Below the pieces are notes generated by a model, which had not been told where the DNA came from, made no database searches, and saw nothing but the letters and a program-made list of their open reading frames with translations. From positions 996,426 through 1,060,425 of the forward strand of contig NZ_JAPVBI010000001.1 in assembly GCF_026967925.1 (NCBI RefSeq): 64,000 nucleotides of DNA. The letters are read 5' to 3'. The position numbers and the translations under genes are program-made. Every line of letters begins with the position of its first letter. Position 1 is the stretch's first letter. Shown here piece after piece: positions 49,938 to 63,886 of the stretch. This stretch comes from Modestobacter sp. VKM Ac-2985. GTDB taxonomy: Bacteria > Actinomycetota > Actinomycetes > Mycobacteriales > Geodermatophilaceae.

Positions 49938-50014
49938 CCTGGGTTGCGTTGGCCGTGGCCGCCGGGCTGGTGCTCTACCTGCTCGCGAGCCTGCTGTTCC
50001 CGGAGCGGTTCTGA
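49934..50014 (+). CDS. kdpF: KdpF, small subunit of K+-transporting ATPase
   Basis: A 26-residue peptide with one helix ending LLFPERF, matching the KdpF pattern (single helix, then P-E-R/K-F). KdpF stabilises the KdpFABC complex. Its stop overlaps the kdpA ATG (TGATG). GTG start. Confidence 0.88.
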
Positions 50015-51723
50015 TGAGCGCCACGGCAGCCGGCTGGCTGCAGGTGGCGCTGCTGGTGATCGCGCTCGTCGCCGTCCACAAGCCGCTGGGCGACTGGATG
50101 GCCCGGGTGTTCACCACCGACGCCACACCCCCTCTGGGGCAGAAATGGCCATTTCTGCCCCAGGGCTCGAGGCACTGGCGGGTCGAGCGGCTGGTCTACC
50201 GGGCCGTGGGGGTGGACGCCGACGCCGAGCAGCGGTGGCCGGTCTACCTGCGCAGCGTGCTGGCCTTCTCGCTGGTGTCGGTGCTCTTCCTCTACCTGCT
50301 CCAGCGCGTGCAGCAGTGGCTGCCGCTGGAGAACGACATGGCCGCGGTGGAGCCGGGCTCGGCCTGGAACACCGCGATCAGCTTCGTGACCAACACGAAC
50401 TGGCAGGGCTACAGCGGCGAGTCGACGATGGGCCACCTGGTCCAGATGGCCGGGCTCGCGGTGCAGAACTTCGTCTCCGCCGCCGTCGGCATCGCGGTGG
50501 CGATCGCGCTGGTGCGCGGCTTCGCCCGCAGCGGCACCGACCGGCTGGGCAACTTCTGGGTCGACGTGACCCGGGCGATCACCCGGGTGCTGCTGCCGTT
50601 GGCCACGGTCGCCGCCGTCGTCCTGGTGCTCGGTGGCGTGGTGCAGAACCTGTCGTCGGGCACCGACGCGACGACGTTGGCCGGGGCGACCCAATTCCTG
50701 CCCGGCGGGCCGGTCGCCTCGCAGGAGGCGATCAAGGAGCTGGGCACCAACGGCGGTGGCTTCTACAACGCCAACTCCGCGCACCCCTTCGAGGGCCCGA
50801 GCGCCTGGATCTCGCTGTTCCAGGTGTTCCTGCTGCTGGTCATCCCGTTCTCGCTGCCGCGCACCTTCGGCCGGATGGTCGGTGACCGCAAGCAGGGCTA
50901 CGCGATCGTCGGCGTGATGGCCGGCCTGGCCGCCGCGTCGCTGGCGCTGACCAGCTGGGCGCAGGCCCGGGCCGGGGGAGCGGCGCTGCAGCTCGCGGGG
51001 GCCGCGACCGAGGGCCAGGAGGTCCGCTTCGGCGGGCCGCTCTCGGCACTCTTCGGGACGGCGACGACGCTGACCTCGACCGGCGCGGTCAACTCGATGC
51101 ACGACAGCTACACGCCCACCGGCGGCCTGCTGGTGATGGCGAACATGATGCTCGGCGAGGTCGCGCCCGGCGGGGTCGGCTCCGGGCTCTACGGGATGCT
51201 CGTGCTCGCCGTCGTCGCAGTCTTCGTCGCCGGGCTGATGGTCGGGCGCACCCCGGAGTACCTGGGCAAGAAGCTCGGCCGCCGGGAGATGACGCTGGCG
51301 TCGCTGTACGTGCTGGTCACCCCGGTGCTCGTGCTCACCGGGACGGCGGTCGCCGTCGCCACCGACAGCGGGCTCGGCTCGCTGCTGAACAGCGGGTCGC
51401 ACGGGCTGAGCGAGGTGCTCTACGCCTTCACGTCGGCGTCGAACAACAACGGCTCGGCGTTCGCCGGGCTGAGCGCGAACACGCCCTTCTACAACACCGC
51501 GCTGGGCCTGTCGATGGCCTTCGGCCGCTTCCTGCCCATCGTGCTGGTGGTCGCGCTGGCCGGCCGGCTTGCCGCACAGGGCAGGGCGCCGGTGACCGCC
51601 GGGACGTTGCCCACCCACCAGCCGCTGTTCGTCGGCCTGCTGGGCGCCGTCGTCCTGGTCGTCGTCGGCCTCACGTACTTCCCGGCGCTCGCCCTTGGCC
51701 CCCTCGCCGAGGCCCTCGCATGA
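50014..51723 (+). CDS. kdpA: KdpA, K+-binding channel subunit
   Basis: A 569-residue, ten-helix protein of the Trk/Ktr channel superfamily. Filter-region motifs include [31 protein letters not shown] and [12 protein letters not shown], as in KdpA of E. coli (557 residues). It binds K+ on the outside and passes it to KdpB. A 30-bp perfect palindrome (50134-50163) lies in frame within the coding sequence, encoding [10 protein letters not shown], between the first helix and [13 protein letters not shown]. Coupled to kdpF. Confidence 0.97.
50134..50163. repeat. 30-bp palindrome inside kdpA
   Basis: A perfect 30-bp palindrome (CTGGGGCAGAAATGG and its complement). The core 24 bp recurs exactly between kdpA and kdpB (51736-51759). 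It adds a short in-frame insertion to KdpA. Confidence 0.88.
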
Positions 51724-51735
51724 CCGCCACCCCTA

Positions 51736-51759
51736 GGGCAGAAATGGCCATTTCTGCCC
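51736..51759. repeat. 24-bp palindrome between kdpA and kdpB
   Basis: Exact core of the palindrome found in kdpA (GGGCAGAAATGG and its complement), in the 58-base kdpA-kdpB gap. Either DNA strand reads QKWPFLP when translated. Confidence 0.88.
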
Positions 51760-51781
51760 CCCTGACGACTGAAGGACTGTC

Positions 51782-53836
51782 ATGACAACGGCGCTCGATC
51801 GTCGTCCCGTCTCCACCGCACCCACCGATCCACGTCCCCGCGCGGCGATCGAGTGGGGGCCGGCGCTGGCCGGCGCCGTCCGCAAGCTCGACCCGCGCGG
51901 GCTGGTCCGCCAGCCGGTGGTGTTCGTGGTGTGGGTCGGCTCGGTGTTCTCCACCGTGCTGGCGCTCACCGACCCGTCGGTGTTCGGCTGGCTGATCGCC
52001 GGCTGGCTGTGGCTGACCGTGCTGTTCGCCAATGCCGCCGAGGCCGTGGCCGAGGGGCGCGGCAAGGCGCAGGCCGACACCCTGCGCAAGGCCCGGCAGA
52101 CCACCGTCGCCTACCTGCTCGACGGCACCGAGGTGCCCGCCGCCGACCTGCGGCCGGGCATGCGGGTGGTCGTCGTCGCCGGGCAGGTGATCCCGGGGGA
52201 CGGCGACGTCGTCGAGGGGATCGCCAGCGTCGACGAGTCGGCGATCACCGGGGAGTCGGCGCCGGTGATCCGCGAGTCCGGCGGTGACCGCTCGGCGGTG
52301 ACCGGTGGGACGACGGTGCTGAGCGACCGGATCGTCGTGGAGATCACCAGCAAGCCGGGGGAGACGTTCGTCGACCGGATGATCGCCCTGGTCGAGGGCG
52401 CCTCCCGGCAGCGGACGCCGAACGAGATCGCGTTGAACATCCTGCTCAGCTCGCTGACCATCGTGTTCCTGGTCGTGGTCATCACACTGCAGCCGCTGGC
52501 GATCTACTCCGGCGCGGAGCAGTCGTTGACCACGCTGATCGCGCTGGTGGTCTGCCTGATCCCGACCACGATCGGCGCGCTGCTGTCGGCGATCGGCATC
52601 GCCGGGATGGACCGGCTGGTGCAGCGCAACGTGCTGGCGATGAGCGGCCGCGCGGTCGAGGCCGCCGGCGACGTGAACACCCTGCTGCTGGACAAGACCG
52701 GCACGATCACCCTCGGCAACCGGCAGGCGTCGGAGTTCGTCGCCGTCGGCGGGTGTTCAGACGACGAGGTCGCCGACGCCGCGCAGCTCGCGTCGCTGGC
52801 CGACGAGACGCCGGAGGGGCGCAGCATCGTCGTCCTGGCGAAGGAGCGGTACGGCCTGCGCGGGCGGGACGACCTGCCGGGTGCGGAGTTCGTGCCGTTC
52901 ACCGCGCAGACCCGCATGAGCGGGGTCGACCTGCCTGACGGCCGGCAGTTGCGCAAGGGCGCCGCGGGTGCGGTGCTGGCGTGGGTGCGGGCGCAGGACG
53001 GCCCGGTGCCGCCGGAGGTCGGGGACGTCGTCGACGGCATCTCCGCCGCCGGCGGGACGCCGCTGCTGTTGGCGTCCACCACGGCGGACGGCGCCCGAGT
53101 GTTGGGCGTCATCCACCTGAAGGACGTCGTCAAGGCGGGGATGGCCGAGCGGTTCGCGGAGCTGCGCCGGATGGGCATCCGCACGGTGATGATCACCGGC
53201 GACAACGAGCGGACCGCCCGGGCGATCGCCGCGGAGGCCGGGATCGACGACGTGTTGGCCGAGGCGACGCCGGAGGACAAGCTGGCGCTGATCCAGCGCG
53301 AGCAGGCCGGCGGCCGGCTGGTGGCGATGACCGGCGACGGGACGAACGACGCCCCGGCGCTGGCGCAGGCCGACGTCGGGGTGGCGATGAACACTGGGAC
53401 GACCGCGGCCAAGGAGGCCGGCAACATGGTCGACCTGGACTCCGACCCGACGAAGCTGATCGAGATCGTGGAGATCGGCAAGCAGCTGCTGATCACGCGG
53501 GGGTCGCTGACCACGTTCTCCATCGCCAACGACCTGGCGAAGTACTTCGCGATCCTGCCGGCGATGTTCGCTTCTGCGTTCCCGGGGCTGGACGCGCTGA
53601 ACGTGATGCGGCTGTCCTCGCCGGAGTCGGCGATCCTCTCCGCGGTCGTGTTCAACGCGCTGATCATCGTGGCGCTGGTGCCGCTGGCCCTGCGCGGCGT
53701 GAAGTACCGGCCGGCGTCCGCGTCGGCGATGTTGCGCCGCAACCTGCTGCTCTACGGCGTCGGTGGCGTGGTGCTCCCGTTCGTCGGGATCAAGCTCATC
53801 GACCTGCTCGTCTCTCTCATCCCCGGGATCGCGTGA
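51782..53836 (+). CDS. kdpB: KdpB, K+-transporting P-type ATPase subunit
   Basis: A 684-residue P-type ATPase. Phosphorylation motif DKTGTIT near residue 307, TGES in the actuator domain, [16 protein letters not shown] hinge and [16 protein letters not shown]. It couples ATP hydrolysis to K+ movement through KdpA. Length matches E. coli KdpB (682). The 58-base gap from kdpA carries the 24-bp palindrome. kdpC follows with a 1-base overlap (TGATG). Confidence 0.98.
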
Positions 53837-54444
53837 TGTCCGCTCTGCGTTCGGGCCGCCAACTGGTGGCCGCTGTTCGTGCCCTGCTCGTGGCCACTGT
53901 GGTGCTCGGGCTGGCGTACCCGCTGCTGATGACGGGCGTCGCCCAGCTGATCGCGCCGGCTCGGGCCGATGGCTCACTGGCGTCGGTGGACGGTTCCGTC
54001 GTGGGGTCGTCGCTGATCGGCCAGTCGTTCACCGACGAGGACGGCGACCCGCTGTCGGAGTACTTCCAGTCGCGGCCGTCGGCCTTGGACTACGACGGAG
54101 CGGCGTCGGGTGGGTCGAACCTGGGGCCGAACTCGGACGAGCTGGTGGCCGCGGTGGGAGAGCGGCGGGCTGACGTGGCCGCCTTTAACGGCGTCTCGGA
54201 GTCCGAAGTCCCGGCCGACGCGGTGACGGCGTCGGGGTCCGGGCTGGACCCGGACATCTCCCCGGAGTACGCGGCAATCCAGGTGTCTCGCGTCGCCGAG
54301 GCGCGCGGGGTGCCGGTGGACGACGTCCAGGCCCTGGTGGACGAGCACACCGACGGGCGAGACCTCGGCTTCATCGGGGCGCCGCACGTGCGGGTGCTGG
54401 AGCTCAACCTGGCGCTCGACCAGCGCCTCGGCGCAAGCGGCTGA
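53836..54444 (+). CDS. kdpC: KdpC, K+-ATPase accessory subunit
   Basis: A 202-residue protein: N-terminal membrane helix (about 12-33) and an extracytoplasmic domain with family motifs GSSLIGQSF, YFQSRPSA, SGGSNLGPNS and DPDISPEYA. KdpC assists K+ binding and complex assembly. Normal length. Last gene of kdpFABC, co-translated with kdpB. Confidence 0.97.
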   Translation: MSALRSGRQLVAAVRALLVATVVLGLAYPLLMTGVAQLIAPARADGSLASVDGSVVGSSLIGQSFTDEDGDPLSEYFQSRPSALDYDGAASGGSNLGPNSDELVAAVGERRADVAAFNGVSESEVPADAVTASGSGLDPDISPEYAAIQVSRVAEARGVPVDDVQALVDEHTDGRDLGFIGAPHVRVLELNLALDQRLGASG

Positions 54445-54560
54445 CAGATGTCCACCAGCACTGGACACGCCACACAGTGCTGGTGGACCCCCTCACCGAG
54501 ACCTCCTCGGTGGGCATGTATCGTTCTCCACGGCTCGGACACACCAGACCGGGTCGGCAA

Positions 54561-54633
54561 GGGGCTGTGGCGCAGCTGGTAGCGCACCACACTGGCAGTG
54601 TGGGGGTCAGGGGTTCGAGTCCCCTCAGCTCCA
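54561..54633 (+). tRNA. tRNA-Ala (anticodon GGC)
   Basis: A 73-nt cloverleaf: acceptor 5' GGGGCTG pairs with CAGCTCC at 54626-54632; D-arm GCGCAGCTGGTAGCGC; anticodon loop CTGGCAG (anticodon GGC); TPsiC arm GGGGTTCGAGTCCCC; discriminator A. The 3' CCA is not encoded. An integrase remnant starts immediately downstream, so this tRNA is the likely attachment site of the island. Confidence 0.95.
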
Positions 54634-54654
54634 CCCCGATCACCAGGCCGTTCC

Positions 54655-55270
54655 CCTTCGGGGAGCGGCCTGAGTCGTCTCTGGTTGCAATTTGCCCACC
54701 CTCACCTGGCAGCAGCAGCAGGGCGCCCATGCGGTCGGCAGCCTCGCGCGCGAGCGCCGGCATGACGTGGCTGTAGATGTCCATCGTGGTGCGCATCTGG
54801 GTGTGGCCGAGCAGCTCCATGACCACCCGCGGGGTGGACGTGCTCGGCGAGCAACAGCGTCGCGGCGGTGTGCCGGCCGTCGTGCAGCCGAACGTGTCGG
54901 ACACCGGCCGTCTGCAGGAGCCGGGTCCAGTCGTCGTAGTCGGTCTTCCTGTGGATCGGCCTGCCGTTGGGCTGGGCGAAGACCAGGTCCTCGTCGTGCC
55001 ACTCGGAGCCGGCCAGCATCCGCTCGCCGAGCTGTGCGGCTTTATGCCGGTGCAGCTCGGCGACGAGAGGTAGCGGGAGCGCCACGGTGCGCTGGCTCTT
55101 GGGCTCCTCGTAGATCAGTCCGCCACCGCGGACGCGATGGATGCTCTGCCGGACCGAGAGCGTGTTGTTCAGCAGGTTGACGTCCTTCCACTTCAGCGCC
55201 GGGGCCTCGGAGTGCCGTAGCCCGAGGGCAAAAGCCATAGTCCAGCGGGCGGAATTGCGGACGGAAGTGC
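54655..55270 (-). pseudogene. Tyrosine recombinase (integrase) remnant
   Basis: The catalytic domain is recognisable: Arg box SARWTMAFALGLRHSEAPALKW, HDGRHTAATLLLAEHV (H-x-x-R), LLGHTQMRTTMDIYSHV with His and the Tyr nucleophile. It is broken by a one-base insertion in a G run at 54831-54834, which shifts the frame between AEHV and PRVVMELLGH. The N-terminal about 200 residues are gone: upstream DNA is an IS3 remnant. Boundaries approximate. It lies next to tRNA-Ala, the classic place for such an integrase. Confidence 0.88.
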
Positions 55271-56118: not shown

Positions 56119-58275
56119 GTGACGGATCGGGCTCTGATCGTGCACGATGGCCGGCTGCCGGGAGGCGCGGGCGCCGTGGTTCTTGCACGCTTGCTCGAGC
56201 GAGCGGACAGTCGCGTGGTGACCGTCCAGCACCTGGTGACCGGGCAGGATGCGCGTTACTTCTGGACAACAGAGATCGGCCGCCTGCTCGAAGAAGCGGA
56301 CAAGCACACGAAGCTCATCCTGTTCGGCGTAACGTATTACGATCTTGAGGACCACCTGGCGAGCGAGGCGCTGGCGGAACTCGACAGGGCCTACGGCGAG
56401 CTGGAGATTTGGTCGCATCGCTGGCCGGACGGCTATTCGCGACCATCGCGGAACGTCAATATTCCGCCGCAGGACATCGTCTACGGGCCACTCGGATACG
56501 AGCTTACGCCGCCTGAGAAGCGCCTGCTTCGGCTGTCGCTGGTGGCCGCCCGCGCAGTGCCGACGGAGGGACGCGATGACGACGTCGCACTGGTCAGTGC
56601 CTTGACTCAGTGGCTTGAGGTGGATCCCACAAACTGGGACCGACTAGTGCGCGAGCCAGACCTCGCCGCGCTGCTTGCCGAAGCGCGGGCCGCCCACACG
56701 CGGGCTAGTCGGGTCGCCGACGCCACGGTGATCGAAGAGCACACCGACTTCATAGACTTGAATATTGCGGGTCGACACGTCAGCCACGAGATTGCCATCA
56801 TCGATGACGTTTTGGCCGATCGCCGGGCGGCCAAAAACACTGTCGTCGTCGCCTGGCTTGGGACCGATCGCGTCCTGCTGTGTCGCCGCGATCCGCAGCA
56901 AGAGTTGCCGTCGCTGCGCTGGCTCATCGACAACCGCCTCCAGGGTGCCGTTCCGGTGGCGCTGCGCGGCGAGGCGTATGGCCCCCAGGACTCCGTCTAC
57001 TTTCGGCTGACTGACGTCGGGGTGAAGTCGGCGCTACGACCCGAGATGCGTGAGCTCGCAAAGCAGCTCGCCGCGGCCTCGACCGGTGGCCGATATCTGA
57101 CCGCAGCGGTCGCCCGCGACGTTGCGGGCATTGCGAACCGGGTCTTCCGGTCGATTGACCTGACCGGCCAGTTCACCCGGAGTCATGATCCGCAGATCGA
57201 GGTCGTGGCGGCCGACCTCTACGACTTGATCCACACCAGCAGTCGAACCGGCGAGCGGCGCCATACGCTGACCATGCCGATTCGGGTCTATGGGCCAGCG
57301 GCTATCGCCTTCCTCTACATGGACGGCGGCTACAACTCGGATAAAGCCGAGCGTCTGCTCGAGGGGGCCATGGTTGGTCTCAGTGGTCGGGGGGTGGCCT
57401 GGCTCGGGCTGCCGCCGCAGTCCGGACGCCTGCGCCTGGACATCCGGCCAATTCTACAAGCGGATGAAGATATCGCCGCAGTCCGGGAAGCGCTCCGTGC
57501 ACCCCGGATAAAGTCGATCGCCTCGGAAGGGCTGGTGGCGACCGACTCCGTCATCGGCAAGGTGCTGTCGAATGTCCGGCTCGACCGTCTGGTGACCATT
57601 GCCGACTCGGAAACGATTGGGCCGTCCGTTGCCCATGCACTGACCCTCCTGGCGGCAGGCGCTGCCCTGCGCGAGGGAGCAGCTAAGGCTTCGATCTTGG
57701 ACTTGTTCGCCGGTAGTGGCGTCGCGAACCGGCTGCTTTCGAACGCCGGCTTTGATGTCACCTCAGTCGACCTGTATGTGTCCGCCAGCTCTGTGGGTCT
57801 CGACTTTTCAAGTTCACCCAGTCTCTGGCTACGGGCCGACGCTCGAGCTGTGGTACATCAGAGCCACCCACTGATCGAGCAGCAGTTCGATGTGATTGGA
57901 CTAGACCCGCCACATTCCGAACTGGTGGAGCTGTTGTTCGGAGCGGAGCAGGGCGAATCGCTCGTCCGTCTGTGTGCTCGCCGGTCTGATCTGCTGGTCT
58001 TGTACCAGGGACATAGCACCCAGCGTGGCCGGCTCGACTTGGTAATGAACGGGCTCGCCGAGGCCGGATGGTGTCACCGGTCGATTTTGCTTGTCGAGGA
58101 GGAATTGATTGTCGTTGCCACCACGGAGCGGACAAAGGCGGATGACTTCCAGCTGCTGGTCCAGCGCATCGTCGACGATGTGCAGGTGTGGTTCATTCGG
58201 CATCAGATGCCAGACGTGCACGCCGTTGAGCTTGCCATAGGTCACGACCCTGTTGGTAAGTTCGAGCTGGCGTGA
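56119..58275 (+). CDS. DHH-like/methyltransferase fusion, candidate defence protein
   Basis: A 718-residue protein of no family I recognise. N-terminal half (about 1-330): alternating strands and helices resembling DHH phosphoesterases (LIVHDGRLPGGAGAVVLARLL, then LILFGVTYYDLEDHL and IWSHRWPDGY), but the DHH and DGD metal residues are missing or altered. Middle: TVVVAWLGTDRVLLCRRD. C-terminal part (about 500-680): class I methyltransferase with SAM motif ILDLFAGSGVANRLL, acidic VDLY, and a catalytic-type LDPPHSE as in DNA/RNA amino-methyltransferases (DPPY variant with His). Lower GC than the core genes. Followed after 52 bases by a kinase-like gene. Function inferred only from context. Confidence 0.72.
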   Translation: MTDRALIVHDGRLPGGAGAVVLARLLERADSRVVTVQHLVTGQDARYFWTTEIGRLLEEADKHTKLILFGVTYYDLEDHLASEALAELDRAYGELEIWSHRWPDGYSRPSRNVNIPPQDIVYGPLGYELTPPEKRLLRLSLVAARAVPTEGRDDDVALVSALTQWLEVDPTNWDRLVREPDLAALLAEARAAHTRASRVADATVIEEHTDFIDLNIAGRHVSHEIAIIDDVLADRRAAKNTVVVAWLGTDRVLLCRRDPQQELPSLRWLIDNRLQGAVPVALRGEAYGPQDSVYFRLTDVGVKSALRPEMRELAKQLAAASTGGRYLTAAVARDVAGIANRVFRSIDLTGQFTRSHDPQIEVVAADLYDLIHTSSRTGERRHTLTMPIRVYGPAAIAFLYMDGGYNSDKAERLLEGAMVGLSGRGVAWLGLPPQSGRLRLDIRPILQADEDIAAVREALRAPRIKSIASEGLVATDSVIGKVLSNVRLDRLVTIADSETIGPSVAHALTLLAAGAALREGAAKASILDLFAGSGVANRLLSNAGFDVTSVDLYVSASSVGLDFSSSPSLWLRADARAVVHQSHPLIEQQFDVIGLDPPHSELVELLFGAEQGESLVRLCARRSDLLVLYQGHSTQRGRLDLVMNGLAEAGWCHRSILLVEEELIVVATTERTKADDFQLLVQRIVDDVQVWFIRHQMPDVHAVELAIGHDPVGKFELA

Positions 58276-58327
58276 TCACCATATGTGATGAGTCATTCGC
58301 AATCTCCGGGCTAGAAGGCGCGACCAG

Positions 58328-59191
58328 ATGACCGCGATTCGGCACGTGGCAGCGGTCGATGCCCTCGGTGAGTTCCTGCCTTTGGGTGGCGCCGTCGGAT
58401 CCCAGCACGCTGACCTGCTGATTGGGTACACGGGACAGGATCTAGCATCGGCCGGGCCGCCCGCCTGCTGGCCTGGAGAGTCGCTTCTGAAACGGGTGGG
58501 TGTCAGGCGCGGCCTGAGCCGAGCGGAGTGCCTGGCCATAGGCGACGGGTACCTCGAGTACCGGCACGCATTGGCGCGGCAAACGACTTGGCAGATGCCT
58601 CGCCTCGCCGAGGTGGTCGCCCATGGCGGTGACCAGGAGTGGCACCTGCTGCTGATCGAGCAGTACGTTCGGGGTGAGTCGCTGTCGGCGTTTCTGGGGA
58701 GTACGCGTCACTCCGCCGAGTACCGACAGGCAGCGCTAGCAGCGGTGCTGCGCAACGTGCTGAGTCATCCAGAGACGAACCGGGCCATCTCGGTGAACGG
58801 CCATCGGCTCCGGCTGGTCGGACAGGGCGTCGACCTGAAGCCATCTAATGTGGTCGTCGCCACGATCGGCTCGCCGTACTTGGTCGACCAGTTCCCGCCA
58901 CTGCTCTTGGACGGCAGCGGCGCGGTGCGGTTCCGGTGGGAGCGGCTGCACACGTTCAGTGAGGAGAAGCTCAAGATCCTGTGCTTTACCAAGGCAGGAG
59001 CCATGCTCCGCCTGCTCCGACTGCTGCAACTCAGTGCGCGGAGCGTGGAGGAGGCGGCACGGCTGACGCGTGGATTCCTCGCCACCGTCCAAGCCGTCGG
59101 CCCACGACAGACCGACTGGCGTTTCTTGTGGCAGGAGGTCCAGGCCAATTTCCCGACGCTGCGGCGGTTGTATGCCGGGGCAACAAGTTGA
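58328..59191 (+). CDS. Protein-kinase-fold protein, unknown
   Basis: A 287-residue protein. It has a catalytic-loop-like VDLKPSNVVV near residue 175 (the D-x-K-x-x-N pattern of protein and small-molecule kinases) and, 15 residues later, LVDQFPP where the DFG metal-binding Asp would lie; LLLIEQYVRGES resembles the hinge. A glycine-rich loop and the N-lobe Lys are not obvious, so it may be an atypical or inactive kinase, or bind another nucleotide. The N-terminus (EFLPLGGAVGS) may fold over the N-lobe. It follows the DHH-like/methyltransferase gene at 52 bases and probably forms a two-gene unit with it. No name known to me. Confidence 0.7.
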   Translation: MTAIRHVAAVDALGEFLPLGGAVGSQHADLLIGYTGQDLASAGPPACWPGESLLKRVGVRRGLSRAECLAIGDGYLEYRHALARQTTWQMPRLAEVVAHGGDQEWHLLLIEQYVRGESLSAFLGSTRHSAEYRQAALAAVLRNVLSHPETNRAISVNGHRLRLVGQGVDLKPSNVVVATIGSPYLVDQFPPLLLDGSGAVRFRWERLHTFSEEKLKILCFTKAGAMLRLLRLLQLSARSVEEAARLTRGFLATVQAVGPRQTDWRFLWQEVQANFPTLRRLYAGATS

Positions 59192-59651: not shown

Positions 59652-60722
59652 TTGCTTACGCCGGACCACAGCCACCTGCGCAAGTACTTGGCGACCCTGG
59701 GCGTGGCCATCGTTGCCGGCACGCTATCTCTAGCTGGCTTATTCTTCAGGCTTCAGCAAGACCTTCTAATTTCACAATCGCGTTTGGACGAGACGACCAG
59801 CGTGGCACGGGAGGCCATCTTGGCGCGGCAGCGATACCTCGCGGTCGCCACCGACTGGCTTCCTTGGGTCGCGCTCATCGGAGTAGTGGTCGGCCTGGCA
59901 CTGGCCGCCTACGGGCTTCTCGGATGGAATAAGCGTCAGCGGGTGGCGGATGAAGTGGAGGATCAGACTCGGGAGAGGGGGCGCCTAGAGCTCAAGGCCT
60001 TGACTGACGCTGAGAAGATGGACAAGATCGCGAAGGATGCCCAAGAGAGCGCTCAGGATGCCCGTCTGAGTGCGGGGAGTGTTGGGGACGACGGAAGTAG
60101 TTCGGCTGGTGACGAGGCATCTCCTGATCCTAAGTCGGGCAAGGGGGAAGAGTCCCAGTTGGATGAGCCCCCCGCCTCTTCGGTCGTGATCGAGCAGTAT
60201 TCTGAGCCGCGAATGTCTACTTCGTCGCGGCCAACAGCCGTATCGCTCACGATGAACGATCAAGATATTGATCGAGCGTCCCTGCACCTTCGCATCGCCG
60301 AGATTGAACGCCGAATGGTCGATCGCCTTGTCCGGGCAGTCCCTGCCAAGATGAAGTTGGTGCCGAATATCAGTGTGCGATCTCAAGGTCGAGTTGCAGC
60401 GTTCGACGCGGTGGCCGTAGACGCGAAAACTATTCCTAGGTATCTGTTTGACGTTAAGTATGCGAGCAGTTCCAGGCACGCGCGCAACGCCTTAATCAGC
60501 TCGGTGCGGCGATCGGCCGACTGGCCGCACTTGGATGATGCGACTCCCATGATCCTGCTGGTTGTGGAAGAGCTCGATCCAAAGTCAATGAATTCACTGC
60601 AGGGCATCGCCCATGACTATCTTTCGAACCTGAACAGGCAAATTGGGCTGGTCATCTTCAGTGCCGATGAGGTGGAGTCCATGAGTGACGATGAATTCGC
60701 CGAGCGACTGGGTCTTCGCTGA
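59652..60722 (+). CDS. Two-helix membrane protein with nuclease-like C-terminal domain
   Basis: A 356-residue protein: membrane helices at about residues 12-32 and 68-92 (short extracytoplasmic loop), a charged coiled-coil and Ser/Glu-rich linker (95-190), then a cytosolic domain (about 215-350). Here strands AFDAVAVDAKTIPRYLFDVKY show Asp followed by D-x-K, the order of PD-(D/E)xK nucleases, plus ILLVVEEL and IGLVIFSADE. Nuclease activity is inferred from this pattern only. TTG start with GGAG five bases upstream; the next in-frame ATG is at residue about 120, so TTG is preferred. Membrane-bound effectors of this style occur in phage defence systems. Confidence 0.68.
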   Translation: MLTPDHSHLRKYLATLGVAIVAGTLSLAGLFFRLQQDLLISQSRLDETTSVAREAILARQRYLAVATDWLPWVALIGVVVGLALAAYGLLGWNKRQRVADEVEDQTRERGRLELKALTDAEKMDKIAKDAQESAQDARLSAGSVGDDGSSSAGDEASPDPKSGKGEESQLDEPPASSVVIEQYSEPRMSTSSRPTAVSLTMNDQDIDRASLHLRIAEIERRMVDRLVRAVPAKMKLVPNISVRSQGRVAAFDAVAVDAKTIPRYLFDVKYASSSRHARNALISSVRRSADWPHLDDATPMILLVVEELDPKSMNSLQGIAHDYLSNLNRQIGLVIFSADEVESMSDDEFAERLGLR

Positions 60723-61042: not shown

Positions 61043-61813
61043 CTAGTGCACCGGGAGAGTCGCGAGTAGGTCCGCGATGCGCTTCGGCAGTCGAGCGACA
61101 GCCCCTGACTTCGTCGAGATGTCCCGCAGGTTGCGATACGCGCGCTGCCTGACGACGGGTGGTGTCATCGCGCGAATGTGACTGATCCGGTCTTCCAGCG
61201 GATAAGTGTTCCCGGGCAGGCGCGCTTTGGTGCGCGCACGGGAACTCGGAAAATCGGTCTCAGGTAGCCAGCGGTCCTCGGGAATGCGTTCCAGGGCCTC
61301 GTCTGTCATCGCTGCGTTGACAGAGAAGTAGCAACCGGCCCCAGCGGCCCGCTCCACCTGATCCGGGTTGCCGCTGAACCAATGAAGGATGAGGCCGGGG
61401 TGAGGCCGTTTCTCGATTGCGTCCAACACTGGATCGATGCGCCCTGTGCTGTGCACGCTGATCAAGACCGGCTGATCCTGCAACTCGTCCAGAATCGACT
61501 CGAAGACCGCCTGCTGAGTCTTAATGCTTCCTCGTCGGTCCATCCCGACTTCGCCGACAACGGCAAAGTATGGATGAGCGCGACGAAAGGTTTCCGCCGA
61601 GTACTCTTCCAGGGCTGCCGGGAGGCCCGGATGTACTCCTAGCCCCCATGTGAGAGGGCGGTCTTGGCGCTGAACTACTTGGCGTGCCTCTTGCAGTGAG
61701 CGTGTCATCGCAAATATCACTGAGTCGCCGAGCGGGCGAATCTGTGCAGGTGTGACGTCATGCGCGATGTGTGCATGACAGTCGAGAGGTGGGAGGTCAA
61801 GGGAGTGGGACAT
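61043..61813 (-). CDS. qatD: QatD, TatD-like DNase of the Qat anti-phage system
   Basis: A 256-residue metal-dependent hydrolase of the TatD family. Metal ligand motifs: DCHAHI near residue 12, GLGVHPG, GEVGMDR (the GEIGLD Glu), ISVHSTGR, LHWFSGN and LPETDFPSS (ETD). This is the TatD-like nuclease of the Qat system (ATPase, QatB, QueC-like QatC, TatD-like QatD). Overlaps qatC by 17 bases, so translation is coupled. Last gene of the operon, in the standard order qatA-B-C-D. Confidence 0.92.
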   Translation of the reverse strand: MSHSLDLPPLDCHAHIAHDVTPAQIRPLGDSVIFAMTRSLQEARQVVQRQDRPLTWGLGVHPGLPAALEEYSAETFRRAHPYFAVVGEVGMDRRGSIKTQQAVFESILDELQDQPVLISVHSTGRIDPVLDAIEKRPHPGLILHWFSGNPDQVERAAGAGCYFSVNAAMTDEALERIPEDRWLPETDFPSSRARTKARLPGNTYPLEDRISHIRAMTPPVVRQRAYRNLRDISTKSGAVARLPKRIADLLATLPVH

Positions 61814-63059
61814 CGCTCAACTCCTTCCGTCCTCTCTCGCACAGACTGAGAACCTCATCGAGATCGATATCCGCGGGCCAAGCGGCGGAGGCGATGAGAT
61901 CAACTTCGTCAACCGGTGAGGCCAGGGCTTCCTTGAGAGCGATCAGGTCCGACCGGCGTCGTGCGATCAGGGTTGTCCGTGCCTCGCCTGTGACTTCGTT
62001 GATCAAATAGGGCGTGTCATCCGCGACGCCAGCGGCGATAAAGGCGCCGCGTCGAACGATGCACGCGATGCAGAGTCCGCAGTTATGCGTAGCGTTCCCG
62101 CCAGTGAGTCGTCCACCGTCGAGTTTGCTGCATGACAGCGTCCGCGCGGCGCCCTCTTGGATGCCGGGCAGGTCGCTGTCGGCAGCCTTGCGGACGAGTT
62201 CCCCCTTGGTCAGCATGGCGTACGGATTGTGGATGGCGATGTTCAGGGAGAGTTCGTTAGTGAGGCGCTGAACTTGATAGAACGTCCACGGGTGCGTTGA
62301 CTTGGTTGACAGTGCTCCGCCGCGTGAGGCCTGCAGGGGCAGGTTGATGCTGGTGAAGCCGTTCTCGGGGACGATGACTTCACGAGCGCTCGTCCCGCTT
62401 GCTGCGGCGATAGCGAGAGCCATGAAAAGCAGTGACCTTGTTCGAGTGGAGGGCTCGCGCTTGGCGGCGGTCTGCGTGATCTGAAGCCGCGTCCAGGAGA
62501 ACATCGGGACTCTGTGGCAGAACCACGCTTCGGCCAGGTTCTGGGCGTGCCGGACAGCGGTGGATGCATCTCGGTGCCCTACGTGGAGTCGGTGCGCCGC
62601 CGAAGCCGCATGGTCCACGGCGCCGGAGAATGAATCTAGCCCGCCGGACAGAAGCATGACGTCGCGCCGCTCGACCGGTACTTGTACCTGACCAGGGGGG
62701 TCGACGCTTTGAACGGGCGTTAGTTCCCAGGTGTCTCCCGTAAGCCAAGCCAAGATGTCCATCACGGTGCGGCCTGGGTCGGACAGCCAGAGATCGGGTC
62801 GTCGCAAGTGCACCGTGAGGTGCAAGTCGCGGGAGAAATGGGTCGGCCTCGGGGCCAGGCGGTCGGTGACGTACGCCGCGACGGCGATTCGCAGTAGATC
62901 GACCGCCTCGTCGGCTACGGCGCCGAAGCCATCGACGTACCAGCCGATGTCCGACTTCAGCGTGTCCGTTGATCCTGGATCGGGGGACCAGGCGATCTGT
63001 TGTGCTGCCGGGTTGGCGGTGGTGGCACCCGAGGGCAGCAGTTCGACGGCGGTCATCAT
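61797..63059 (-). CDS. qatC: QatC, QueC-like nucleotide-modifying enzyme of Qat
   Basis: A 420-residue enzyme with a QueC-like PP-loop ATPase domain: VMLLSGGLDSFSGAVDHA (SGGxDS) near residue 137, and a C-terminal zinc cluster HNCGLCIACIVRRGAF with CxxC pairs as in 7-cyano-7-deazaguanine synthase. The first 130 residues are an extra domain specific to QatC. It probably makes or installs a 7-deazaguanine-like group on protein or nucleic acid during defence. ATGA overlap with qatB upstream and 17-base overlap with qatD. Confidence 0.93.
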   Translation of the reverse strand: MMTAVELLPSGATTANPAAQQIAWSPDPGSTDTLKSDIGWYVDGFGAVADEAVDLLRIAVAAYVTDRLAPRPTHFSRDLHLTVHLRRPDLWLSDPGRTVMDILAWLTGDTWELTPVQSVDPPGQVQVPVERRDVMLLSGGLDSFSGAVDHAASAAHRLHVGHRDASTAVRHAQNLAEAWFCHRVPMFSWTRLQITQTAAKREPSTRTRSLLFMALAIAAASGTSAREVIVPENGFTSINLPLQASRGGALSTKSTHPWTFYQVQRLTNELSLNIAIHNPYAMLTKGELVRKAADSDLPGIQEGAARTLSCSKLDGGRLTGGNATHNCGLCIACIVRRGAFIAAGVADDTPYLINEVTGEARTTLIARRRSDLIALKEALASPVDEVDLIASAAWPADIDLDEVLSLCERGRKELSDVPLP

Positions 63060-63886
63060 GTCGTGCCCTTCAGTAGGCTGACGGCATCTGCCGTCAGCCT
63101 GGTTGCCTTCTCGATGAAGGTCCTAGGCGAAAAGCGCCCCATTACTGCGAGGCGCGCCCCCTTGATCCGTCGCGCGATGTAGGGCTTCACGAACTGCTCG
63201 AACTTTCGTGTCGCTTGTGCGGAGAGTCCGTCGCGAGCCCGCTTCGACCTCAGTTCGACCAGGGCCGACCGGTAGACGAAGGCACTCAGGAACGTGCGCA
63301 GCACTTCCTCCTCGCTCAGGGGCGACTTAGCAGCCAGGACTTCCTTCATCGTCTCGTAGGCCGCCTTGCGGAGGGCCTCGTCATCCGGGTGCCCGGGAGC
63401 GCCGATGACGTCGTCCAGAATCCGCATGCACTGCTCTCGCACCGGAAGTGCCGAGAGTTCACGCAGGTTGAGGCCAAGATCATCGAGTGCGCTGGCATTG
63501 CCTTCTCGAAGGGCATACGCCCCAGCGATGGCGGCGGCTCCTCGGGCGGCCTGCTTCTGAAGCGATCTCGGCGAGCGACTTCGGCCCGTACTGCCGGATG
63601 AGCCACTGCGAACCGACCCGCTCCCGCCGCCGCGCTCATGGCGCTTGGAGGCGAGCAGGTCATTGAGGTTGAAGGAGGGACTCTGCCGTGGGCGGCGAAG
63701 CGCTGTGTCCTGCTTCAGGAAGGCGTTAGCGATGGCCTGAGCCACGGCTTGGGCATGGTCGTTTGGTCGGGAGCCGTCGTCGGATGCGGGGCTGGATTTA
63801 CCGCTGCTGTCAAGGTCAGCGAACGCATCATGGGCGTCTGCCCAAGAAGCCGATCCACTACCTCCGTACGCCCCCGACGTGCCCAT
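63056..63886 (-). CDS. qatB: QatB, Qat system protein
   Basis: A 276-residue protein. The MGTSGAYGGSG N-terminus is typical of QatB, which is a likely substrate or carrier for the QueC-like enzyme. The N-terminal 110 residues are disordered and Ser/Gly-rich; the rest is helical with SALVELRSKRARDGLSAQATRKFEQFVKPYIARRI. The molecular role of QatB is not established. Its ATG overlaps the qatA stop by one base (TAATG) and its stop overlaps qatC (ATGA). Confidence 0.9.
   Translation of the reverse strand: MGTSGAYGGSGSASWADAHDAFADLDSSGKSSPASDDGSRPNDHAQAVAQAIANAFLKQDTALRRPRQSPSFNLNDLLASKRHERGGGSGSVRSGSSGSTGRSRSPRSLQKQAARGAAAIAGAYALREGNASALDDLGLNLRELSALPVREQCMRILDDVIGAPGHPDDEALRKAAYETMKEVLAAKSPLSEEEVLRTFLSAFVYRSALVELRSKRARDGLSAQATRKFEQFVKPYIARRIKGARLAVMGRFSPRTFIEKATRLTADAVSLLKGTT

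Follow-up and report, generated by a model that had tools for sequence, protein, structure and literature searches.

The analysis concerns two adjacent genes, gene 1 and gene 2, in a 64,000-nucleotide stretch of DNA from Modestobacter sp. VKM Ac-2985 (contig NZ_JAPVBI010000001.1, positions 996,426 to 1,060,425, referred to below as the window), which lies within a 4.7 Mb genome. Both are real and intact genes on the same strand, separated by 52 bases in the reading frames of the window; the exact frame positions bear out what an initial annotation of this DNA had described. Gene 1 combines a putative, degenerate DHH-DHHA1-like region with a predicted methyltransferase, gene 2 is related to Ser/Thr kinases, and the pair is read here, tentatively, as an accessory cassette that plausibly serves defence.

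56119-58275, + strand: gene 1, 718 amino acids, GTG start, intact open reading frame
58328-59191, + strand: gene 2, 287 amino acids, ATG start, intact open reading frame

When 112 genomes of the family were searched with gene 1, two matched, namely the genome of the window itself and that of Geodermatophilus sp. DF01-2. The Geodermatophilus copy has the same gene order with an 11-base gap, and the identity between the copies is 67% for gene 1 and 46% for gene 2. Because this second copy in another genus aligns across 707 and 283 codons, respectively, both genes are considered genuine. Differences between the copies by codon position are 187/131/437 for gene 1 (707 codons) and 124/103/186 for gene 2 (283 codons). 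The Nei-Gojobori estimates of nonsynonymous and synonymous substitution (dN/dS) are 0.27/2.34 for gene 1 and 0.58/2.67 for gene 2, where dS is near saturation and the direction alone is safe. In each gene the differences are most numerous at third codon positions and synonymous changes prevail, and the motifs FAGSG, DPPH, DLKPSN and VDQFPP are identical in both copies. In a promoter and terminator scan the signals stayed at chance level.

The C-terminus of gene 1 is supported as a class I S-adenosylmethionine (SAM) methyltransferase whose motifs look intact.

Approximately residues 490-700 of gene 1, + strand: predicted class I methyltransferase (from the methyltransferase profile and motifs)
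57691-57738, + strand, within residues 525-540: putative methyltransferase motif I, LDLFAGSGVA (profile, motifs)
57886-57930, + strand, residues 590-604: putative methyltransferase motif IV, FDVIGLDPPHSELVE (profile, motifs)

A profile of this region was compared with 15 methyltransferases, kept from 30 loci by a motif filter, and gave a probability of 46.4% (E 2e-4), with AGSG pairing with CGTG and DPPH with NPPF, whereas the reversed profile and 39 shuffled ones reached at most 0.7%. The filter used in this and the following profile comparisons favours motif-bearing rows, and the same targets served for the controls. Between the two copies, motifs I, post-I, III and IV are near-identical, and the FAGSG and DPPH motifs by which a methyltransferase had originally been recognised are upheld. 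Weak family matches of gene 1 are mainly to nucleic-acid methyltransferases, plus TehB, and include the RNA-type tRNA G26 dimethyltransferase (E 0.013) and Cons_hypoth95 (E 0.26), the latter of which we take to be RsmD-type.

For gene 2, a relationship to Ser/Thr kinases is supported, with homology over the hinge, the catalytic loop and the metal-binding aspartate.

58328-59191, + strand: product of gene 2, predicted divergent kinase-fold protein (profile, fold search), with K55, D169-L-K-P-S-N174 and D187 identical in both copies

In a local comparison, the two-copy profile of gene 2 matched 29 Ser/Thr kinases (from 30 loci) with 91.8% probability and E 7.2e-7 over profile columns 109-208; the hinge matches, DLKPSN pairs with DVKPxN and VDQ with TDF. 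No control, whether the reversed profile or any of 39 column shuffles, exceeded 0.8%, and the comparisons with the APH family (9 of 30 loci passing the filter) and the DHH proteins gave 3.4% and 0.3%, respectively. The fold search points the same way: of 1463 PDB matches with E up to 10, the 50 best are protein kinases without exception, the top one at E 3.2e-3. The kinase relationship proposed earlier from DLKPSN and DQF is therefore borne out by profile and fold search alike. Residues K55, D169, N174 and D187 are identical in both copies, the HRD motif reads GVD or GID and the DFG motif reads DQF (G(V/I)DLKPSN, VDQF). Kinase activity is likely but not certain. In a search of 396 genomes of the phylum with gene 2, no further pair was found, and the two frames matched other than its own are, by reading, PASTA-type Ser/Thr kinases.

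In the fold search of a low-confidence model, the N-terminus of gene 1 resembles DHH-DHHA1 proteins, an assignment that is supported but not secure.

Approximately residues 1-345 of gene 1, + strand: putative degenerate DHH-DHHA1-like region (fold search; limits approximate)
56137-56178, + strand, residues 7-20: candidate place of DHH motif I, IVHDGR(L/V)PGG(A/T)GAV, with no DxD pair (predicted strand order)
56398-56442, + strand, residues 94-108: candidate site of DHH motif III, the signature motif, (E/D)(L/I)E(I/V)WSHRWPDGYS(R/Q), where DHH reads SHR (predicted strand order)
57076-57126, + strand, within residues 320-336: candidate DHHA1 glycine motif, TGGRYLTAA (by-eye match)

Matches 1 to 8 of 1109 in the PDB are GdpP, DhhP and PAP phosphatase (the latter at ranks 7 and 8), which we take to be members of the DHH-DHHA1 superfamily. 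All six matches at E <=0.001 are GdpP or DhhP, and the eight DHH matches span about 355-374 columns. A protein named RecJ ranks second for gene 1 in a library of viral-protein folds, where it comes from a phage. The predicted order of strands and helices fits the motif places listed above, for which the definitions of motifs I to III are those we presume to hold for DHH proteins; likewise, TGGRYLTAA is likened to what we take to be the GGGH motif of DHHA1. At the assigned places (HDGRxPGG, FGVT, SHRWPDGY) neither copy has the metal-binding DxD, the aspartate of motif II or DHH, and the residues around the substituted sites mostly agree between them. If the fold is right, this pattern could be that of a dead enzyme kept for binding. 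The C-Ala domain of alanyl-tRNA synthetase (AlaRS) appears at rank 33 among the fold matches of gene 1. In PMC3307487 this domain is described as akin to DHHA1, and both domains are linked to binding of RNA or single-stranded DNA (ssDNA).

No model of Pfam or NCBIfam reaches its cut-off for gene 1 or gene 2, and no model of PADLOC or PHROGs reaches E 0.001 for either, in agreement with the earlier statement that neither architecture matches a familiar defence or biosynthetic family. The best matches in PADLOC-DB 2.0 are MTase_II for gene 1 (E 0.021) and PD-T4-6 for gene 2 (E 0.0059), both covering part of the protein. A match to DUF6218 (E 0.0066, 64 residues) falls under the cut-off and was not used.

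The island in which the pair resides begins at a tRNA gene and adjoins a defence operon.

54561-54635, + strand: tRNA-Ala(GGC), marking the left edge of the island; variable site in sibling genomes
54404-55238, - strand: broken tyrosine-recombinase gene (overlapping frames), context only, outside the unit
59652-60722, + strand: neighbouring membrane protein, outside the unit and unmatched on the contig that carries the second copy
61043-61813, - strand: qatD (defence model match)
61797-63059, - strand: qatC (defence model match)
63056-63886, - strand: qatB, begins MGTS (weaker model match)
63886 to about 65652, - strand, running beyond the window: qatA (model match)

The original description of a tRNA-associated island beside Qat holds, as tRNA-Ala, an integrase fragment, the Qat matches and a lower guanine-plus-cytosine (GC) content all agree. 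The fragment matches PF00589 (Phage_integrase) within 54705-55238 at E 3.2e-13, and this broken integrase is the only mobility gene recognised in the window, where the pair itself is intact. In 500-base windows the GC content is 57.0-66.8% across the island (55,001-65,500), 68.6-73.0% in the left flank (50,001-55,000) and 71.6-78.2% in the right flank (66,001-72,000). In four sibling genomes, the match to the left flank ends with the tRNA and right-flank homology returns 4 to 15 kb further on; between the flanks, none of the four has a match of at least 60 bases to the island of the window, and its seven proteins gave no match in the four sibling stretches at E 0.01. Short extra copies of about 45 terminal tRNA bases occur in several of 23 genomes of the genus, as expected for stacked integrations. 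In the 102,575 bases examined, the search downstream of the island of the window for another copy of the tRNA end yielded nothing longer than 13 bases, so that the right end of the island is undefined. The tRNA-Ala site is a recurrent cargo site. In the four siblings (L034-L037) the same site carries other DNA, including a DUF4238 protein in L034.

The four-gene operon qatABCD adjoins the island of the pair. According to PMC13279940, MGTS is the conserved start of QatB, and a change of the glycine there abolished defence. The actinobacterial QatB of the window shares this start with the working operon described there, though its match to the QatB model is weak. The pair was rejected as a member of the Qat system, since it matches no Qat model, lies on the opposite strand and has no Qat on the second contig. 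The membrane protein at 59652-60722 was likewise rejected as a third member of the unit because the contig carrying the second copy has no match to it. Its family matches in Pfam and NCBIfam are all under the cut-off and those in PHROGs are weak; by eye, its C-terminal stretch FDAVAVD...YLFDVKYA resembles a PD-(D/E)xK nuclease core.

The second copy lies in other company. On one side it is accompanied by a Resolvase, an IrrE-like peptidase, a DNA methylase, a Replic_Relax protein and a type IV secretion system (T4SS) coupling protein, and on the other side by a membrane protein, a sigma-like protein, a GHKL ATPase, two ParB-like proteins, one of which falls under the Pfam cut-off, and another DNA methylase. 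On its 49,341-base contig, of which all but 77 bases were covered, the Qat proteins and the protein at 59652-60722 gave no match at E 0.01. The surroundings at the two loci are different, and therefore the pair is taken to be a unit that moved between elements. No complete recognised defence system was seen at the second locus. The GHKL ATPase there gave a single-component match to MzaB (E 1.3e-15), and one DNA methylase matches the PglXI model among 60 methyltransferase models (E 9.1e-11), which was taken as a generic methylase match. On the same contig the GHKL ATPase (L006, 18830-20644, - strand) is divergent from the ParB-like pair and an N6/N4 DNA methylase (L011, 10756-14072, + strand), and this cluster may be an undescribed restriction-like module. 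A further frame (L006, 16876-17802, - strand) has a CxxC...EHV pattern with the look of an HNH-type endonuclease by eye and matches only an unknown PHROG (E 3.6e-7).

We propose an accessory cassette whose dead DHH-DHHA1 module would present nucleic acid to a kinase-gated methyltransferase, plausibly for defence. This explanation, including the view that the two genes form one transferable cassette, is held as a whole with somewhat less than even confidence. The module of gene 1, bare of metal-binding residues, would no longer cut but would still hold a ligand, either a nucleotide or a nucleic acid such as RNA or ssDNA. It would hand this ligand to the fused methyltransferase, which could modify either the ligand or a target brought there, probably by methylating a base amino group, and the kinase-fold partner encoded by gene 2 would switch the complex on or off via phosphorylation. 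The benefit would most likely be protection against phages or rival elements, because the pair is intact cargo beside Qat in an island with a broken integrase. We infer the loss of hydrolysis, the ligand, the methylation target, the phosphorylation and the defence role alike.

Several points weigh against this proposal. The structure model of gene 1 is poor, with a mean predicted local distance difference test score (pLDDT) of 42.6, ten-residue means of 58-79 in residues 161-260 and a predicted template-modelling score (pTM) of 0.31. Its eight DHH matches superpose with a template-modelling (TM) score of about 0.12 by query length and a root-mean-square deviation (rmsd) of 16-22 Å, so the DHH agreement of this predicted model is one of local structure strings with poor superposition. 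The profile of the N-terminus matched 16 actinobacterial DHH proteins (16 of 16 loci passing the filter) with only 0.1% probability, a comparison that covered NrnA-like proteins, not NrnB/COG2404. At E 1, Pfam DHH gave no match in gene 1. The low pLDDT, the low TM score and the lack of a DHH profile match also speak for the explanation that the N-terminus is unrelated to DHH and that the fold match is an artefact of the poor model. On the other hand, the eight best of 1109 matches fall in one superfamily, by the membership presumed above, RecJ ranks second in an independent library and the predicted strand-helix order fits the motif places; we regard an artefact as unlikely. The degenerate DHH N-terminus suggested by the initial annotation is supported only by the fold search of a low-confidence model and does not show up in the profile comparison.

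For gene 2 the model is equally poor (mean pLDDT 41.3), no kinase fold match reaches E 0.001, the rmsd exceeds 11 Å for 48 of the 50 best kinase matches, and the models of the pair in general superpose badly (TM about 0.1-0.3). End to end, the comparison with the kinases gave just 14.8%. The sole library match of gene 2 below E 0.001 is to a stretch of the transporter YccS (TIGR01666, E 9.7e-4, 17.4 bits where the cut-off is 470.75) and was taken as chance. Neither an HRD histidine nor a glycine-rich loop is recognisable in gene 2, so that its activity is not certain, and a pseudokinase or a kinase of small molecules may be at hand. With regard to the methyltransferase, DPPY or NPPF is common at motif IV and DPPH is unusual, so that the target is not nameable. 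With no more than two copies, 67% identical, there is little power to call residues conserved. Finally, the association with defence comprises two loci, of which one is clear. A conserved pair found repeatedly beside defence genes had been named earlier as what would support a defence role, and of this the conservation on a second, different mobile element was found, whereas the repeated link to defence was not, as one of just two loci has Qat.

Besides a model artefact at the N-terminus, three other explanations were weighed against the kinase-gated cassette. The module could serve the mobile element itself, through self-marking, regulation of transfer or anti-restriction, and not the defence of the host. 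Both copies lie on mobile elements, the second contig carries a resolvase, Replic_Relax, a T4SS coupling protein and two DNA methylases, and no significant match in a defence library exists; however, the pair is intact next to a broken integrase, thus outliving the mobility genes, and lies directly beside Qat; we regard this explanation as unlikely, albeit one to be taken seriously. A more specific form of the defence proposal, an undescribed immune role, is rather improbable, in which a two-gene system under kinase control would use a dead cyclic-dinucleotide or oligonucleotide phosphodiesterase fold as sensor of a nucleotide signal or nucleic-acid fragment of infection and would steer the methyltransferase to RNA or DNA of phage or host.

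Actinobacterial accessory islands often carry tailoring genes and kinase-fold proteins include small-molecule phosphotransferases, both of which would suit a pair that tailors small molecules or peptides, for example in resistance or specialised metabolism. This is opposed by the preference of gene 2 for Ser/Thr protein kinases over APH, by the absence of a recognised biosynthetic gene among the scanned neighbours of either copy, though several of these match no family, and by the DHH-DHHA1-like module, for which such a pathway offers no evident role; we judge it to be improbable. The least probable explanation is an enzyme for tRNA or rRNA modification with a regulatory kinase, whose DHHA1-like part would bind tRNA like C-Ala. 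It would account for the C-Ala domain at rank 33 and for the weak tRNA G26 dimethyltransferase and Cons_hypoth95 matches, but these matches are under the curated cut-offs, the other weak ones are to DNA methyltransferases and TehB, and the pair is present in just 1 of 111 other genomes of the family, so it is no core modification.

The pair is very rare: with all further sets searched, the known loci number two in total. No further pair was found in 394 genomes of the class, 397 of the order and 297 of one other actinobacterial family; these sets are samples that partly overlap, and the seeded scans favour close relatives. The scan of genome contigs used two short seed patterns, with which 40 stretches matched and one was a relative, so distant relatives could escape it. 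Plasmids yielded no further pair, with just weak partial matches at E 10, some of those for gene 2 being kinase genes, and neither phages nor five scans of viral contigs gave any. A sequence search of the PDB with the proteins of the pair returned nothing useful. Neither outcome that would have refuted the initial annotation occurred: within the scope of these searches, no homologue turned up in a housekeeping locus, and similarity to DHH and kinase proteins did emerge from the fold searches.

The scans of class, order and the other family left 11 short stretches other than the window itself, and the frames of ten were read by eye. L005, L014, L015, L017 and L019 read as methyltransferase-like, L004 as MurG-like, L018 as a MerR-type regulator, L020 as deacetylase-like and L021 as carbamoyl-phosphate-synthase-like, whereas the frame of L016 has no recognisable content; all ten were rejected as relatives. 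L114 (G1181:C1:259612-259785) matches positions 453-507 of the gene 1 profile, just before the methyltransferase domain, at E 8.4e-6 and was not counted as a relative. A similar short match in L018 falls in the frame of the MerR-type regulator.

If the proposed cassette is real, a nuclease fold of the GdpP/RecJ type would have been emptied of its metal site, fused to a methyltransferase and partnered by a kinase, and the 3 kb unit would be suited for testing dead nucleotide phosphodiesterases as sensors in bacterial immunity. Judging by the rarity of the pair, the current defence catalogues seem to miss much of what the islands of environmental actinobacteria carry. It would be of lesser importance if the pair were merely the modification module of an element.

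No published description of such a pair was found, as judged on titles and the openings of abstracts, and known systems resemble it in part. In its low-confidence model, gene 1 resembles the DHH-DHHA1 phosphoesterases in its alpha/beta N-terminal order, its helical linker and the following region with TGGRYLTAA, and differs from them (GdpP, DhhP, PAP phosphatase, RecJ, NrnB/COG2404) as the metal motifs are replaced and a methyltransferase is fused. Inactivated archaeal RecJ homologues and CDC45, as presented in the accessible part of PMC3307487, illustrate that the DHH fold persists structurally after catalysis is lost; these are replication proteins, and that part mentions neither a methyltransferase fusion nor a kinase partner. 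With MTS/RsmC-like and other DPP(Y/F)-type class I methyltransferases, gene 1 aligns at its AGSG and DPP motifs, where DPPH replaces NPP(F/Y).

Gene 2 aligns with PknB-type Ser/Thr kinases at the hinge, the catalytic loop and the DFG region but differs in its altered HRD and DFG, in having no recognised glycine-rich loop and in giving no Pfam match at E 1. PD-T4-6 (a PADLOC model), reportedly the single-gene Ser/Thr-kinase system of the defence screen in PMC9519451, though not under this name there, shows a weak partial match to the kinase core of gene 2 (residues 89-187), which is not significant. In BREX type 2/Pgl a Ser/Thr kinase acts with a methyltransferase in phage defence, and PglW has kinase and endonuclease domains, as outlined in PMC12839542. 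PglW has 1400-1600 residues and several domains compared to the 287 residues of gene 2, the PglX and PglW models gave no match to gene 1 or gene 2 at E 0.1, and no BREX model matched among the six window proteins scanned. The resemblance to BREX type 2, drawn by analogy, is thus one of logic and not of membership. Each domain of the pair appears to come from a known superfamily, whereas their combination appears to be new.

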